A stretch of 64,000 nt of DNA from Nesterenkonia muleiensis. Lineage in GTDB: Bacteria; Actinomycetota; Actinomycetes; Actinomycetales; Micrococcaceae. Each line of letters starts with the position of its first letter. Position 1 is the first letter of the stretch. Location of the stretch: positions 248,001 to 312,000 of the forward strand of contig NZ_QWLD01000016.1 in the NCBI RefSeq assembly GCF_003600155.1, written 5' to 3'. Shown one piece after another: positions 41,157 through 47,048 of this stretch. The translations under genes and the position numbers were made by a program. The notes beneath the pieces were generated by a model. That model did no database searches and was not told where the DNA came from. It saw only the letters and a program-made list of their open reading frames with translations.

Positions 41157-41480
41157 TTGGCTGACGTGACCGAACCTGTGGTGGAGGATGACCACTATCT
41201 GCGTGTCCACACACCGCAGGGCACAGTGGAGATCATCGGCAATGAGGTGCATCTGCCCGGTGCGGAGCCGGCACAGCTGGCACCCGGGCCGATGTCCGTG
41301 ATGCGGGCGCTGGTCAAGGCACAGGGCGCGGTGATCTCCCGGGAGCATTTGCTGCGCGTACTGCCGGACTGCGGATCAGCCCACGGCCTGGAGATGTGGG
41401 TCTCCCGGCTCCGCCAGTCACTTCCCAATCCGGACACCGTACAGACAGTGGTCAAACGCGGCTACCGCCTGGCGCTGTAA
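41157..41480 (+). CDS. Free-standing winged-helix protein of the HemD-associated type
   Basis: A 107-residue OmpR-type winged helix. The C-terminal GLEMWVSRLRQSLPNPDTVQ and TVVKRGYRLAL match the DNA-binding tail that many actinobacterial uroporphyrinogen-III synthases carry after the catalytic domain; here there is no HemD domain. The start is a TTG at 41157 after GAGGAGG; a GTG at 41166 is an alternative. It is divergent from the AztD-like gene and may regulate it. It could be a relic of a hemD fusion or a small independent regulator; the open frame and good ribosome binding site favour function. Confidence 0.65.
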   Translation: MADVTEPVVEDDHYLRVHTPQGTVEIIGNEVHLPGAEPAQLAPGPMSVMRALVKAQGAVISREHLLRVLPDCGSAHGLEMWVSRLRQSLPNPDTVQTVVKRGYRLAL

Positions 41481-41486
41481 TGTTCC

Positions 41487-41580
41487 GCCGGCGAGGAAAC
41501 CTCGCTCGGCTCTCGGCCGCGTGACCGCGGCCATCACGCCTAAAGTCGGTGCCATCGCTTCACTTGAGGCTCACCACCTG
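41487..41580. repeat. Structured intergenic repeat, copy A
   Basis: Hairpin 1 is GCCG-GCGAGG, loop AAA, CCTCGC, a bulged T and CGGC (41487-41510). Hairpin 2 is GGCCGCG, loop TGAC, CGCGGCC (41515-41532). Then follows the conserved ATCACGCCTAAAGTCGGTG (41533-41551) and weaker pairing GGTG/CACC. The copy lies between the winged-helix gene and the 3' end of trmB. Copies B (45895) and C (46875) keep the shape with changed sequence. Confidence 0.75.
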
Positions 41581-41587
41581 CACGAAG

Positions 41588-42427
41588 CTAGGGTTTGCGC
41601 AGGTAGTTGAGGTCGAAGATCTTCCGGCCGGCGCGCAGGGCCTTCTGCTCAAAGTCGGTCACCACCCTGGCGGCGAACCGCGGCGCCCAGCCCCCCTCAT
41701 CATCGCGGGCCTGAGGCAGCGGCAGCGGGTGAGCCGGTTTCCCCAGGCTCGCCGCATCGAGATCACCCAGCCGCACCTGGGTCAGCGGCGACTCCTCCCC
41801 TGCCAGCCGACCAGCATGAGGGTTCCAGAACGACGACGACGCCCCGATCACCTCCCGCATCTGCACGGCGTAGTCGGACCAGTCAGTGGCCAGCCGCCAC
41901 ACCCCGGTGGGTGCGATCACCTGCGCGGCCCTCTCCGCGAAGCTCGGCTGCACCAGTCGGCGCTTCTTGTGCTTGGACTTATGCCAGGGATCGGGGAAGA
42001 ACACCCACAGTTCAGCGACTGAGCCTGCCGGCAGCAGGTTGTCCATCACCTCCACCGCATCCAGGCAGGCCACCCGGACATTCGCCAGTCCCTCACGGCG
42101 GATCCGTGCTGCCAGCTGTGCGGCTCCGGGGCGGTAGACCTCAATGGCCAGGAAGTCGGTATCCGGGTTGGCCGCCGCCGCGCCGGCGATGGCCTCTCCC
42201 GAACCTGAGCCGATCTCCACGATCAGCGGAGCGGTCCGCCCGTACTCGGCGTGCCAGTCAACGCTGAACCCTGGGGCGACAGAGGTGTCGCGCTCACCAT
42301 GGGGCACATCGAGCAGCTCCTGGCCGAGAGCGGCGTCCCAGGCCCGCTGGTAACTGGGCTTGAGCCTATTGCTGCGGCGCACGAATGACAGCGGCTTGCG
42401 GTAGTGCTTCTGCGGTCTCTCAGACAT
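41588..42427 (-). CDS. trmB: tRNA (guanine-N7-)-methyltransferase
   Basis: A 279-residue TrmB, which methylates G46 of tRNA using S-adenosylmethionine. The SAM motif is IVEIGSGSGEAIAG; the catalytic/tRNA region VFFPDPWHKSKHKKRRLVQ is diagnostic. The ATG at 42427 (MSERPQKHYRKPLSFV) removes 31 unrelated residues of the longer frame. It starts 11 bases after the penicillin-binding protein stop and so is probably the last gene of the dnaK transcript. Copy A of the structured repeat lies just past its stop. Confidence 0.92.
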   Translation of the reverse strand: MSERPQKHYRKPLSFVRRSNRLKPSYQRAWDAALGQELLDVPHGERDTSVAPGFSVDWHAEYGRTAPLIVEIGSGSGEAIAGAAAANPDTDFLAIEVYRPGAAQLAARIRREGLANVRVACLDAVEVMDNLLPAGSVAELWVFFPDPWHKSKHKKRRLVQPSFAERAAQVIAPTGVWRLATDWSDYAVQMREVIGASSSFWNPHAGRLAGEESPLTQVRLGDLDAASLGKPAHPLPLPQARDDEGGWAPRFAARVVTDFEQKALRAGRKIFDLNYLRKP

Positions 42428-42438
42428 GGGGAATGCGC

Positions 42439-44364
42439 CTAACCGTCCTGCTCGTCCAGTATCTCCCGGGCGCCGATGAGGAACTCCCGCATCAGGGGAC
42501 CGTTGGTTGATGAGCCCCATTCACCCTCCTCCAGGAACACTGCCACGGCGAGGTCGTCCTGGGAGCCGATCACCCAGGTATGGGAATACGTGTCATCGTC
42601 TGCCCCGGCTTCAGCGGTGCCGGTCTTGGCGTAGACGTGCGGACCGGGGATCGGGTCCAGACCGCTCAGGGTGCCGTAGTCCACGGTGCCGTGCATCAGC
42701 TCGCGCAGCTGCTCGCCCTCCTCCTCGGTCAGGCCGCCCTCCTGGGGGTGGTCCTCGCGCTGGACCAGCCAGGGGTGGACTGTGCGCCCGTCAGCGATCG
42801 AGGCCGCCACCGCGGCCATGCCCAAGGTGGAGGTCTCCACCGTTCCCTGTCCGAAGAGGTTGGCAGCATGCAGGTTCAGCTCGGAGTCCTCCGGCACCCG
42901 TGCCTTAAGCGCTTGGATGCCGATTCCCACGTCATTGTCCATCCCGAGGTCCAGGGCGGCTTGGGCGAGGTCGGCAGAGCTGACATCCTCCCAGGCCCCG
43001 GCAAAGGTGGTGTTGCAGGAGACCGCCACAGCGGTGTTGAAGGGGATGCTGCCAACATACTGGTCCTGGAAGCCGGGCACATTGCGAAACTGCTGGCCGT
43101 GGACAGTCACCGAGTTCGGGCAGGGGACCGTGGACTCGGGGGTGAGGCCCCCGCGCAGCATCGCCAGGGCGGAGACCATCTTGAAGGTGGAGCCCGGCGC
43201 ATACGCCGACTGGGTGGCGGTGTCCACCTGGGGTGCCTCAGGGTGGTGGCTGGCAGCGGCCAGCACCGCACCGTCGGAGGGCCGGATCGCCACCAGGGCA
43301 GCATTGACCTCCTGCTCATCGACGATGCCCTGGGCAAGGTCCTGAACCCTGGGCAGCAGCCCGGTGTGTACATCACCCCCCTCCTCCGGCTCCGATGAGT
43401 AGAGGGTGGTCTCTCCCATGCTGATGCGCACACCGGGGACTCCGCGAAGCGTACTCTCATGCACCGCCTGGATGCCGGACAGTCCGACCATGTCGCCGTG
43501 ACTGAGCGTAGGGTCATCCTCCAGATGCTCGGCAGTCACCGGACCCACCCGGCCTAAGAGGTTCGGGGCGAAGTCAGAACTCTCCGCCAGCGGCAGCTGA
43601 CTGTACTGCAGGTGCACCCCGGCGATGTCCTCCACATCCTCGGCACTGACGTGGCCACCCTCGGTGCGTACGGTGATGGCTTCGACGAACGCCTCATCCC
43701 CGTAGGCCTGGACTGTTTCCTGGTAGGTCTCAGCATTGACCCCCACCACCTCGGCAAGCTCCCTGGCCGCCTCCTGCTGGTCCTGCTCCGACTCCAGCTG
43801 GGTCTTGTCCAGGCCGATGCGCACCACATCTCGGTTGTAGACCATAGCCCGTCCGCTGCCGTCTATGATGCGGCCGCGGTCCGCGGTGGTGGTGGAGATG
43901 CCGATGTTCTCATGGCCGGCGTAGTCGGGCAGGATGATCTGGGTCTCACCGTCCACAAGCCACGTGTCGGATTCCTCGTCGTAGGTGTAGTCGGCCTCGG
44001 TGGTGTAGGTCCACTCCTGGCCGTCGAGGCCGATCTCCTCCAGCTCCCAGACATGCTCGAAGGCGGCCTCCGCAGTGGGCGGGCGCACCGAGTCCTCCTC
44101 CGGCTCGTGGACCTGGACGCCGGCGACCTCGACCTCTGGTCTCAGCCCATCGAAGGGCTCCTGGAGGTTCTGGACAGCCTCCTCAAGCGCCTGGGGAGTT
44201 CCTGCGGCCAAGCTGATCCCCTCAAAGCTCCCTGTGCTGATCGCCTCAGCGGTGACCGCCGCGGCCACCGAGACATCTGCGCGCTCATCCTCTCCGCCAC
44301 ACCCGGTGAGCAGCACCAGGAGGGCACAGCAGCCGGTGAGTGCTGCGGACCTGGAAAATGTCAT
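42439..44364 (-). CDS. MecA-like class B penicillin-binding lipoprotein
   Basis: A 641-residue transpeptidase. It has a lipoprotein signal with lipobox LTGC (Cys22), an NTF2-like MecA_N domain at about residues 30-150, a dimerisation domain from about 160 to 330 and the transpeptidase domain after that: active-site S392-T-F-K395, SCN in AVSCNTTFAG and KTG in YAKTGTAEAG. It crosslinks peptidoglycan outside the membrane. Anchoring as a lipoprotein rather than by a transmembrane helix is a less common form. Its ATG overlaps the hspR stop (ATGA), placing it in the heat-shock operon. Confidence 0.9.
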   Translation of the reverse strand: MTFSRSAALTGCCALLVLLTGCGGEDERADVSVAAAVTAEAISTGSFEGISLAAGTPQALEEAVQNLQEPFDGLRPEVEVAGVQVHEPEEDSVRPPTAEAAFEHVWELEEIGLDGQEWTYTTEADYTYDEESDTWLVDGETQIILPDYAGHENIGISTTTADRGRIIDGSGRAMVYNRDVVRIGLDKTQLESEQDQQEAARELAEVVGVNAETYQETVQAYGDEAFVEAITVRTEGGHVSAEDVEDIAGVHLQYSQLPLAESSDFAPNLLGRVGPVTAEHLEDDPTLSHGDMVGLSGIQAVHESTLRGVPGVRISMGETTLYSSEPEEGGDVHTGLLPRVQDLAQGIVDEQEVNAALVAIRPSDGAVLAAASHHPEAPQVDTATQSAYAPGSTFKMVSALAMLRGGLTPESTVPCPNSVTVHGQQFRNVPGFQDQYVGSIPFNTAVAVSCNTTFAGAWEDVSSADLAQAALDLGMDNDVGIGIQALKARVPEDSELNLHAANLFGQGTVETSTLGMAAVAASIADGRTVHPWLVQREDHPQEGGLTEEEGEQLRELMHGTVDYGTLSGLDPIPGPHVYAKTGTAEAGADDDTYSHTWVIGSQDDLAVAVFLEEGEWGSSTNGPLMREFLIGAREILDEQDG

Positions 44365-44876
44365 CCGTCCAGTCTACGTGGAGGTTCAGGGGGTCTGGAT
44401 GAACGCCAGACGACCAGCTCCCTGCCGGCGGGCCTGGGACGCTGTCCTCTGGTCAGGGTGACCACATCTCCCCGGGAACCCACGGCGAAGACCCGCCTGC
44501 TGCCCGGCTCGCGCTGGGCCTCACGCAGCGCCTGCCGGAGCTCACCGACCTCTTCTTCGAGCACCTCCACCCGGTTCTGCAGCTGGATGATGCGCCGGAT
44601 GCCCTCGAGGGAGACGCCCTCCTGGCTGAGCTGCTGGATCTGCCGCAGCTGCTCGATCTCATAGGGGGAGTAGCGACGGTGACGCCCGCCTTGGCGGCGC
44701 GGACTGACCAGGCCGATCCGGTCGTACTGGCGAAGGGTCTGCGGGTGCATATCGGCCAGCTCCGCCGCCACAGAGATCACGAAGAGCGGGTCATGCCGGT
44801 GTGTGGCAGCGAGCATGCGAGGGTCGTCGTCGTACTCAGCGATATTCTCCCGAATACGAATTCTGGTGTAAGCCAC
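44361..44876 (-). CDS. hspR: Heat-shock repressor HspR (MerR family)
   Basis: A 171-residue MerR-type regulator. The HTH is FVISVAAELADMHPQTLRQY with RQGGRHRRYSPYEIEQLRQI, and a coiled coil follows (LQNRVEVLEEEVGELRQAL). HspR binds HAIR sites together with DnaK as corepressor and controls dnaK operons in actinobacteria; three such sites lie before dnaK here. It is coupled to the downstream penicillin-binding gene by a four-base overlap. The C-terminal tail after about residue 125 is long and basic. Confidence 0.93.
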   Translation of the reverse strand: MAYTRIRIRENIAEYDDDPRMLAATHRHDPLFVISVAAELADMHPQTLRQYDRIGLVSPRRQGGRHRRYSPYEIEQLRQIQQLSQEGVSLEGIRRIIQLQNRVEVLEEEVGELRQALREAQREPGSRRVFAVGSRGDVVTLTRGQRPRPAGRELVVWRSSRPPEPPRRLDG

Positions 44877-44905
44877 AGACGTTCACCTCCTTTCGCTGAT
44901 GCCTG

Positions 44906-45865
44906 TTACAACGCGGCCTGACCCTCCAGACCTTCCCGAGGATTGACTCCGGCCGTCGCGGCGGCGAAGGCACGCACGGCTTGCTCGGCCTCTTCACTGA
45001 GCTGGTCCGGCACCACGACGTCCAAAACCGCCAGCATGTCCCCGGAGCTGTTCTTCCGGCGGATGCCATGGCCTTTCAGCCGCAGCGTCTTGCCGGTGCT
45101 CGAGCCGGCGGGGATTCGTATTTTAACCTTCTCCCCGTGGATGGTGGGCACCTCGGCGGTGGCACCGAGCGCCGCCTCGTCGAAGCTGACCGGCAAATGG
45201 ACGCGGATGTTGTCGCCCTCGCGGGCGAAGAAGGGATGGTCCTGAACCGAAACCTCCACCAGCAAGTCCCCGGTACCTCCGGGACCAGGCTGGCCCTTGC
45301 CCTTGACCCGGACCTTCTGCCCCTCTTTGATCCCGGCGGGGATACGCACATCGATGACGTTGCCCGAAGGCTCGCGCAGCCCGACGGTGGTCCCACGCAC
45401 CGCTCCCTTGAAGGAGATGGTGGTCTTCGCCGTCCGGTCAGCACCCTTGGCGGGAGCGCCGCCGAAGCGTCCGCCGAAGCGCTCACCCATGCCGCCGAAG
45501 ATGTCCTCGAAGCCCCCGCCAAAGCGTCCGCCTGCGGTGCCTGGGGAGCCTCCCTGACCGAAGAGCCCGCCGAAGATGTCCTCGAAGCCCCCGCCATCGC
45601 CGCCTGGGCTTCCGGAGAACCGGGCTCCGGAGCCCATGGCTCGGATGGCGTCGTACTGCTGGCGCTGCTCCGGGTCGGCGAGCACGGAGTGCGCCTCGGA
45701 GATGTTCTTGAACTTCTGCTCGGCGGCCTCATCGCCGGGGTTCTTATCCGGGTGGTGCTGGCGCGCCAGCTGCCGGTAGGCCTTCTTGATCTCCTCGGCG
45801 GAGGCATCCTTGGCCACACCCAAGGTCTTGTAGAAATCCTTGTCGATCCAGTCCTGCGAGGCCAC
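44906..45865 (-). CDS. dnaJ: DnaJ/CbpA-type co-chaperone without zinc finger
   Basis: A 319-residue J-domain protein. The J domain occupies residues 1-70 with HPD in [14 protein letters not shown]; a Gly/Phe-rich region with several FGG repeats follows, then two DnaJ C-terminal beta domains ([40 protein letters not shown]). The four CxxCxGxG zinc repeats are absent, so it is the CbpA-like class seen in the actinobacterial dnaK operon. The start is GTG. It stimulates DnaK ATPase and delivers unfolded clients. Confidence 0.92.
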
Positions 45866-45894
45866 GGATGCCTCCTCCTTCCTCTGCTGGTCCC

Positions 45895-46006
45895 GCTGGC
45901 GGGGAAACCCCGCTCAGCTCTCGGCCAGCTTACGCTGGCCCTCACGCCTAAAGTCGGCGTGGTCGCGTCGCTCCACGCCTCACGGCCTTCGCCACGCCAA
46001 CTTTAG
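45895..46006. repeat. Structured intergenic repeat, copy B
   Basis: Hairpin 1 is GCTG-GCGGGG, loop AAA, CCCCGC, a bulged T and CAGC (45895-45918). Hairpin 2 is GGCCAGC, loop TTAC, GCTGGCC (45923-45940). The conserved CTCACGCCTAAAGTCGGCG follows (45941-45959). In this copy a third pairing is long: CTAAAGTCGGCGTGG (45948-45962) and CCACGCCAACTTTAG (45992-46006) pair with one mismatch. It fills the grpE-dnaJ interval. Stem changes relative to copy A are compensatory. Confidence 0.8.
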
Positions 46007-46843
46007 CTACTGCTCGGCGCTGCCGGTGGAGACGATCACCTGGGCTGCGCGCAGCAGCCGGTCACCGAACCGGTAGCCGGAGCGGACCACCACCACGATG
46101 TGGTCCTCCTCGACCTCCTCATCGGGCTGCTGCATGATCGCCTCATGCTCAGTGGGGTCGAACTTCTCCCCCACAGCACCCACTGGCGTGAGACCCTGCT
46201 GGGTGAGCACCTGTTCCAAACGCCCGGCGATGTGGGCGAACGGTCCGTCCTCAAGATCACCGGCAGCACGTGCTGCGGCAATATCGTCGAGCACCGGCAT
46301 CAGCTCGGAGATCAGATGTCCTTTGACACGGTCCTTCTCCAGCGTACGGTCGCGGTCGACCCGGCGCCGGTAGTTCACGTACTCGGCCTGCACCCGGCGC
46401 AGATCGTTCTCCAGCTCAGCCTCCCGGTCATACCCCTGAGCCTCGAGCTCCTCCTGTGCGGCATCAATCCGCTCAGCCGGCTCCGTCTCTCCGCCGCCGA
46501 CGGCCTCCCCAAGAGGCACTTCACGCAGTTCGGGGCCCTCAGCCACCTCGGGGTCCTCCCCCGGCGGCGGTTCGTGAAGGTCGAGTGTTGGGTCTGCCGA
46601 CTGCTCGTGAGCCTGCTGAACCTCAATCGACTCATCAGGCACATCGGCGAGGATTCGCTCGGCCTCTGCCAGCGGGTCCGCCGTCGGGTCAGTTGCTGCG
46701 GCCTCTCGGTCCTCAACGGTGGCTTCGCCCTCCGCGGGCTGGCGGGCGGCACCGGTCTCGGGGTCGATCCGGCGCTTGTCTGTGAAACGGACCGGCTCGG
46801 CCGCCTCATCACCCTGTTCGGGGTTGTACTTCTTCTCTGCCAT
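46007..46843 (-). CDS. grpE: Nucleotide exchange factor GrpE
   Basis: A 278-residue GrpE. About 140 N-terminal residues are acidic and disordered (for example EGEATVEDREAAATDPTADP), longer than usual. The GrpE core follows: YVNYRRRVDRDRTLEKDRV coiled coil, LMPVLDDIAAARAAGDLEDG and the C-terminal DHIVVVVRSGYRFGDRLLRAAQVIVS. It releases ADP from DnaK. The ATG at 46843 gives MAEKKYNPEQGDEA; the longer frame is rejected because it runs into the intergenic repeat. Copies B and C of the structured repeat flank the gene. Confidence 0.93.
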   Translation of the reverse strand: MAEKKYNPEQGDEAAEPVRFTDKRRIDPETGAARQPAEGEATVEDREAAATDPTADPLAEAERILADVPDESIEVQQAHEQSADPTLDLHEPPPGEDPEVAEGPELREVPLGEAVGGGETEPAERIDAAQEELEAQGYDREAELENDLRRVQAEYVNYRRRVDRDRTLEKDRVKGHLISELMPVLDDIAAARAAGDLEDGPFAHIAGRLEQVLTQQGLTPVGAVGEKFDPTEHEAIMQQPDEEVEEDHIVVVVRSGYRFGDRLLRAAQVIVSTGSAEQ

Positions 46844-46874
46844 CGCAGTGTCCTTCCAGTGCTGTGCTGGTCCC

Positions 46875-47035
46875 GGCGGCGGGGGGGACCCCGCTCGCCT
46901 CTGCGCACCCAAGGTGCGCAATCCTCAATCGCCTCGGAGGCTACGAGCAAGCTCACACCCTCACTCGGCTCAATCGGATCTCGGCCGCGTCACCGCGGCC
47001 ATCACACCTAAAGTCGGTGCACCGCTTCGCTGGCA
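46875..47035. repeat. Structured intergenic repeat, copy C (split by an insert)
   Basis: Hairpin 1 is GGCG-GCGGGG, loop GGGA, CCCCGC, a bulged T and CGCC (46875-46899). About 80 bases are then inserted, including a separate stem TGCGCACC-CAA-GGTGCGCA. Hairpin 2, GGCCGCG, loop TCAC, CGCGGCC, is at 46983-47000, followed by ATCACACCTAAAGTCGGTG (47001-47019) and a third stem GGTGC/GCACC. It lies in the dnaK-grpE interval. Hairpin 1 again differs from A and B by paired changes. Confidence 0.75.
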
Positions 47036-47048
47036 CCTCAGGCATCCC

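Follow-up and report, generated by a model that had tools for sequence, protein, structure and literature searches.

Three hairpin-bearing intergenic repeats in a 64,000-nucleotide stretch of the Nesterenkonia muleiensis genome (assembly GCF_003600155.1, contig NZ_QWLD01000016.1, positions 248,001 to 312,000 of the forward strand; hereafter the window) belong to a repeat family that gives an actinobacterial genus well over a hundred naturally replicated structured elements, whose presence or absence can be scored at defined sites in related species. The family probably consists of clade-specific, short, non-autonomous interspersed palindromic DNA elements, resembling repetitive extragenic palindromes (REP), bacterial interspersed mosaic elements (BIME) and miniature inverted-repeat transposable elements (MITE), that multiplied in one Nesterenkonia branch. 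As judged by comparing sequences, the repeat is evidently mobile: it is present in some species and absent from others, it occurs nested and in tandem, and it lies in frame inside grpE in one relative. The family is apparently undescribed, while its kind, interspersed palindromic repeats, is already known. A first-pass annotation of the window, which had reported the three copies, knew of no named family of this form; we obtained no Rfam match at the gathering score in the window and found no published name in the literature searched, the coverage of which was partial.

The first-pass annotation had proposed a covariance-model search for further copies, and these proved numerous. Blastn with a 66-nt query located 45 places in the genome of the window (E≤10). 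A covariance model built from 32 aligned full-length copies, taken from fetched loci, found at least 144 places at E≤0.1 (150 candidates were scored, and more may exist), with E-values of 1.6e-26 and 5.3e-26 for copies 1 and 2 of the window, both of which were in the model. Such numbers lie far beyond chance. This genome is a single draft and was read only around located copies. The model search of the genus (E≤1e-3) found the repeat in 11 of 30 Nesterenkonia genomes, in 138, 94, 58, 42, 25, 20, 18, 12, 5, 4 and 3 copies, and gave no match at this threshold in the other 19. Ranked by GrpE match, the twelve best relatives include all ten carriers besides the genome of the window, and the family therefore seems restricted to one branch; the remaining pair of the twelve (G006 and G017) gave no match and are incomplete genomes (79% and 62%). 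An exact-pattern scan of one genome per species across 84,980 species returned 46 stretches, 45 of them in Nesterenkonia (ebinurensis, massiliensis, alkaliphila, alba and one metagenome-assembled genome) and one in Wenjunlia, and blastn against 28 genomes of other genera produced a single weak match (G051, E 8e-4). A phage or plasmid origin was rejected, as viral contigs held no exact-pattern match and plasmids and phages no blastn match of copy 1.

Orthologous sites differ between species in whether they hold the element. The grpE-dnaJ spacer contains it in the genome of the window (G000) and in G029, G014 and G001; in G005, G007 and G010 the spacer lacks the element and is 59-61 nt long. The spacer is also empty in G015, where two elements (61.8 and 40.3 bits) lie in frame inside grpE. 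These two copies lengthen the N-terminal part of the G015 protein and the frame stays open (L132:1057-1968); a weak match (23.2 bits) lies inside grpE of G029. At era, the C-terminal sequence KKLNRLGF (or one close to it) and the stop are kept in 29 of 30 genomes (the remaining match is broken), and an element stands directly behind era only in G000, G029 and G014. At this site the copies of G000 and G029 have the same flanks, yet their stem 1 differs without loss of pairing. An element also stands behind the clpP stop, in the same orientation in G000 and G013 and reversed in G015, a difference best explained by separate insertions.

The consensus unit is about 70 nt long and reads CNGTGYTGG-TYCC, hairpin 1, TCTC, hairpin 2, WTCRCRCCTRAAG. 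Stem 1 has 10 pairs and a bulged base, usually T, in its 3' arm, and stem 2 has 7 pairs. Units occur singly, as direct tandem units about 66 nt apart, or followed by a third hairpin. The parts found in the window are as follows.

41482..41545, plus strand: two-hairpin core of copy 1 (covariance model 90.6 bits); stem 1 GCCGGCGAGG/CCTCGCTCGGC at 41487-41510, stem 2 at 41515-41532, tail ATCACGCCTAAAG
41546..41573, plus strand: third hairpin module of copy 1, TCGGTGCC...GGCTCA, in which pairing is weak
45890..45953, plus strand: two-hairpin core of copy 2 (covariance model 89.0 bits), 24 nt upstream of the dnaJ start; stem 1 GCTGGCGGGG/CCCCGCTCAGC at 45895-45918, stem 2 at 45923-45940
45954..45982, plus strand: third hairpin of copy 2, GGCGTGG/CCACGCC-TCA
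46870..46902, plus strand: 5' part of copy 3 (covariance-model match), stem 1 GGCGGCGGGG.../CCCCGCTCGCC at 46875-46899, then TCT
46903..46978, plus strand: module B nested in copy 3, hairpin GCGCACCC/GGTGCGC, then CCTCAATCGCCTCGG...CTCGGCTCAATCGG
46979..47013, plus strand: 3' part of copy 3 (covariance-model match), TCTC, stem 2 at 46983-47000, tail ATCACACCTAAAG
47014..47040, plus strand: third hairpin of copy 3, TCGGTGCACCGCTTCGCTGGCACCTCA

The hairpins, the T bulged from the 3' arm of stem 1 in each copy, and a conserved segment CCTAAAGTCGG (at 41539, 45947 and 47007 in copies 1, 2 and 3) had all been correctly located by the first-pass annotation. The two hairpins that it described stand close together in copies 1 and 2; in copy 3 their stems lie 83 nt apart with a second repeat, module B, between them, and the model scored the two halves as weaker matches at 46870-46929 and 46960-47013. 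The conserved segment, in turn, ends within the 5' arm of a third hairpin that had been missed (TCGGCGTGG...CCACGCC-TCA in copy 2) and that has compensatory changes of its own. An alternative pairing is also available in copy 2, between CTAAAGTCGGCGTGG (45948-45962) and CCACGCCAACTTTAG (45992-46006).

In its general form the third hairpin reads TCGGnnn-TCGCTTCGCT-nnnCCTCA. TCGN follows the unit in 24 of the 139 copies with enough sequence, and 19 of these 24, picked by eye, have a loop like TCGCTTCGCT and end in CCTCA or similar; the five others (L110, L113, L178, L181 and L201) were dropped by eye, a choice that favours pairing. Pair 4 takes all four Watson-Crick forms among the 19 (A-T 5, T-A 4, G-C 4, C-G 4), and over the first six pairs 94 of 114 cells are Watson-Crick, against 69 in shuffled sets (maximum 85). 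Selecting by rule, which kept 23 of the 24 copies, gave 106 of 138 cells against 81 shuffled (maximum 98).

The genome of the window yielded 148 de-duplicated rows, a few of which are cut fragments of one another, forming 118 clusters, 25 of them with at least two rows. The multi-copy arrays that were read are direct repeats on one strand (each strand was clustered by itself, with no separate tally of inverted neighbours), and their tandem units have a common linker and differing stems.

Pairing is conserved well beyond these three copies. Among the 32 copies, aligned without structure, 93.0% of cells were paired and 56 cells carried a double change, against 20.2 after shuffling; 7 pairs showed a double change against 5.4 shuffled, a number reached in 57 of 500 shuffles. 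In 61 copies from the genome of the window, a set fitted to the model and biased in its favour, 93.8% of 957 cells were paired, 135 cells carried a double change (41.6 shuffled), and 15 of 17 pairs did so (7.5 shuffled, with none of 500 shuffles reaching 15). When the partner was shifted by 1-3 columns, pairing in the 61 copies fell to 41-50%. The earlier claims of a repeat family and of conserved pairing are borne out, the pairing exceeding both the shuffled and the shifted controls, while the statement that every difference keeps pairing holds for the three window copies and, over the 61, for the 93.8% of cells just given. Conserved pairing alone does not show a cellular function, because a mobility enzyme that needs the hairpin, or template-switch repair of palindromes, can also keep pairing.

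The elements tend strongly to stand just behind stop codons. In the genome of the window 46 clusters have a co-oriented upstream gene, and the start of 40 of them overlaps the stop codon of that gene or lies no more than 11 nt from it: ten overlap (eight by one base) and 16 start exactly 4 nt behind the stop. Among the clusters with both neighbours known, 37 of 42 are near a stop, against 6.8 expected for uniform placement in the same gaps and a maximum of 16 in 10,000 simulations. The junction C-TGA-G was found in all 16 copies of this genome at spacing 4 and in 21 of 21 from a mixed sample that also included relatives; where no stop is near, the border reads CNGTGYTGG, mostly CAGTG. Conversely, 17 copies in this genome read CTGAG and carry no flag as the second unit of a tandem; spacing 4 is found in 15 of them and spacing 9 in one, and one has no called gene. 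The profiles of ribosomal protein L7/L12 and Era match to the last position, and that of ClpP nearly so. By this measure the stop codons are natural where checked, and a stop supplied by the element was rejected for era, rplL and clpP; in some copies GYTAG may itself supply a TAG stop.

Most copies lie outside genes. Of the 148 rows, 93 fall between two called genes and 31 inside heuristic open reading frames (ORFs; 20 on the same strand, 11 antisense), and 24 lack a neighbour at a contig or locus end. We thus observe a short palindromic unit, mostly intergenic, dispersed in many copies in one genome, as in interspersed palindromic repeats generally. Among gaps of 40-600 nt, copies occupy 41 of the 112 tandem ones, 19 of the 28 convergent ones and 9 of the 40 divergent ones (convergent versus divergent, p 0.0004); these counts come from the window and from loci chosen for holding copies, and only the comparison between classes is meaningful. 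Selection against damage would explain the avoidance of promoters and gene interiors and not the register at stops, which suggests either that C-TGA is preferred as a target or that the position serves a function.

The genes around the window copies are dnaK, grpE, dnaJ, hspR and trmB, all on the minus strand (dnaK, hspR and trmB score above their curated NCBIfam cut-offs, dnaJ and grpE below theirs), together with a minus-strand neighbour that we take to be a penicillin-binding-type gene. Copy 1 lies between a co-oriented ORF (41157-41480), starting 1 nt behind its TAA, and the convergent trmB; copy 2 lies in the grpE-dnaJ spacer and copy 3 in the dnaK-grpE spacer. The first-pass annotation had rightly assigned two copies to the dnaK operon and one to the vicinity of trmB, and we add that both operon copies are antisense to the operon. 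A special tie to the operon was not supported: copies adjoin many unrelated genes, some close relatives have dnaK-grpE-dnaJ spacers without copies, and one relative has the element within grpE. A riboregulator of the dnaK operon was accordingly rejected.

Stop-proximal REPs in E. coli are reportedly the subject of work by Liang and others (2015). Among the closest known systems are REP, BIME and REP doublets forming hairpins (REPIN), which in E. coli and Pseudomonas are associated with the transposase TnpA-REP (REP-associated tyrosine transposase, RAYT): these and our family alike are high-copy, mainly intergenic palindromes with a fixed irregularity in the hairpin and tandem mosaics. Two sources extend the likeness to compensatory changes across hairpins in REPINs (PMC3116915) and to the many E. 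coli REPs close behind stop codons, those within 15 nt of a stop lowering translation (PMC12306157). The Nesterenkonia unit differs in having CNGTGYTGGTYCC as its 5' block, with no GTAG tetranucleotide in the consensus, and in consisting of two or three different hairpins in fixed order within one direct unit, without REP/inverted-REP pairs; its start often overlaps the stop as C-TGA-G, and its carrier genomes have no match to the Y1 transposase domain (PF01797). Membership of the RAYT-linked REPs was rejected on the absence of GTAG, the direct rather than inverted arrays, and the lack of PF01797 in 11 of 11 carriers. Like IS608, in which an unpaired T (T17) in the hairpin is recognised (PMC8266576), our element has an unpaired T and no target duplication was seen; unlike the subterminal hairpins of IS200/IS605 and their MITE derivatives, it came with no related transposase or parent element in the carriers (PF01797) or in seven loci inspected by eye. 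Rickettsia palindromic elements are likewise short palindromes that also insert in frame in protein genes (PMC10969869), as here in grpE of G015; the host is unrelated, and the Nesterenkonia copies are mostly between genes. In an intrinsic terminator a T run would follow the GC hairpin; the stems here are followed by TCTC and WTCRCRCCTRAAG, as judged from the alignment and not from a terminator scan. BOX elements of pneumococcus are modular units with several hairpin blocks in varied combinations; our repeat, in a different phylum, shares the modular hairpin blocks, a likeness at the level of description.

If the family consists of mobile palindromic DNA elements, it would have spread by transposition through a hairpin folded in single-stranded DNA, with a mobility protein supplied in trans. 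The bulged T and, weakly, the mismatch pattern described below would fit a strand-specific enzyme acting on single-stranded DNA. Copies would survive where they are least harmful, and those with hairpin 1 about 9 nt behind a stop may, secondarily, trim translation or protect mRNA 3' ends, as is reported for E. coli REPs. Several observations weigh against such a history. Mobility rests on species differences and not on observed transposition. The 96 aligned borders showed neither target-site duplications nor terminal inverted repeats, although no clean empty site fixes the exact ends of the element. PF01797 matched in 0 of the 11 carrier genomes and, among the 30, only in G006, a genome without copies; inspection by eye of the genes of seven loci showed no transposase, nor a parent transposon between neighbouring copies. 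Some copies occupy the same site in several species, and part of the family is therefore old and inherited. G002 has a weak blastn match (E 5.3e-4) and yet no model match, and the gene calls come from a simple codon-usage script, a heuristic with which single distances may be off. The exact placement at stops and the missing Y1 transposase raise the questions of what moves REP-like repeats without a RAYT and whether stop-adjacent hairpins tune expression. One bolder answer, which we regard as improbable, is a new hairpin-borne mobile element that inserts at stop codons, in which a non-Y1 single-stranded DNA recombinase integrates the folded element 3' of C-TGA or C-N-G-T and the fixed hairpin about 9 nt behind dozens of stops acts as a genome-wide termination tuner.

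An RNA-level explanation would treat the repeat as a cis-acting element of 3' UTRs and operon spacers, whose hairpins the mRNA needs as a ribosome-stall or attenuation signal behind stops, a barrier to 3' exonucleases or a processing site, including for differential expression of dnaK, grpE and dnaJ. The fixed spacing behind stops, the scarcity of copies in divergent gaps relative to convergent or tandem ones and the effect of E. coli REPs lying no farther than 15 nt from a stop (PMC12306157) speak for it; we nevertheless consider it unlikely, given that copies between co-directed genes point either way (35 and 28 of the 148 rows), that 31 rows lie inside called ORFs and that species without copies keep the same genes. 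Mismatches offer a cheap test of RNA- versus DNA-level structure for repeats, by comparing G.T with A.C according to transcript direction, and the answer here is mixed. Among 160 copies of this and related genomes that have 12 or more Watson-Crick pairs (the Wenjunlia locus left out), A.C outnumbered G.T by 89 to 52, and by 68 to 36 among isolated mismatches (p 0.002). Constraint on mRNA should favour G.U in the transcribed strand, and tandem and intragenic sites show no such preference in either orientation (25 G.T and 44 A.C with the plus strand transcribed, 10 and 23 with the minus; Fisher p 0.66); these classes therefore lean to DNA. The balance reverses at convergent sites (11 G.T, 7 A.C), which speaks for an RNA element, and at divergent sites (6 and 4; pooled 17 versus 11, p 0.016 against the rest), and the p-value of the A.C excess (~0.002) ignores the shared ancestry of copies, so that p-values are rough; both points weaken the case for a DNA-level structure. 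An earlier unfiltered count gave 20 versus 26 and 23 versus 26. Because of this reversal and the shared ancestry, the data lean only weakly to DNA, with a structure that may be needed in the element's own minus strand, and the pairing may, as the first-pass annotation held, serve either RNA or a DNA cruciform.

Pairing might also be kept by mutation rather than selection, through template switching in palindromes (quasipalindrome correction) or conversion between copies that homogenises the arms. Most of the changes are indeed double ones, from G-C to C-G, and intermediates altered on one side are few; tandem units share their linker and differ in their stems. We find this doubtful: most copies keep the bulged base of stem 1 and the unpaired loops, so that the hairpins are not just being turned into perfect palindromes, and the conserved blocks TCTC and CCTRAAG sit outside the stems. 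Bidirectional transcription terminators, amplified as insulators of neighbouring genes, would account for the strong GC hairpins and for convergent gaps being the most often filled. They seem very unlikely, as neither stem is followed by a T run in the sequences read, copies lie within ORFs and inside operons (dnaK-grpE-dnaJ and ectB-ectC-like genes), and the conserved unpaired blocks would be left without explanation.

Several side observations were made. Arrays of the element stand between two genes of an apparent ectoine operon in two Nesterenkonia species (L052 and L072), the flanking genes being, we presume from their sequence, ectB- and ectC-like. Downstream of era, most genomes hold a strongly conserved short stretch like CTTCTCCGCCGCAGCGGGGA, preceded by leucine codons (L263-L291), which we take to resemble a leucine attenuator leader peptide. 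Contigs C8, C13, C15, C16, C18, C25, C38, C39, C42, C47, C50 and C57 of G000 end in or close beside copies, and the repeat therefore probably breaks the draft assembly.

Two other interspersed palindromic repeats accompany the family. Module B (CCTCAATCGCCTCGG...CTCGGCTCAATCG) has 27 places in the genome of the window at E≤1; it lies between stems 1 and 2 in copy 3 and, as seen by eye, inside the stem-1 loop in the orthologous spacer of G029 (L129). Flanked by direct CTCAATCG, it occurs alone, within the main element (window 46903-46978) and apparently within protein-coding stretches (L157 and L160 on C13). Module C (CCCYGACGTGGCCC...) was found as 15 distinct stretches in the fetched loci of this genome with one substitution allowed, and forms a large, almost perfect cruciform, CCCTGACGTGGCCCGCACAAACGC...GCGTTTGCACGGGTCCCTGACGTCAGGGG, whose copies at L018, L103, L110 and other loci of the same genome show compensatory differences.

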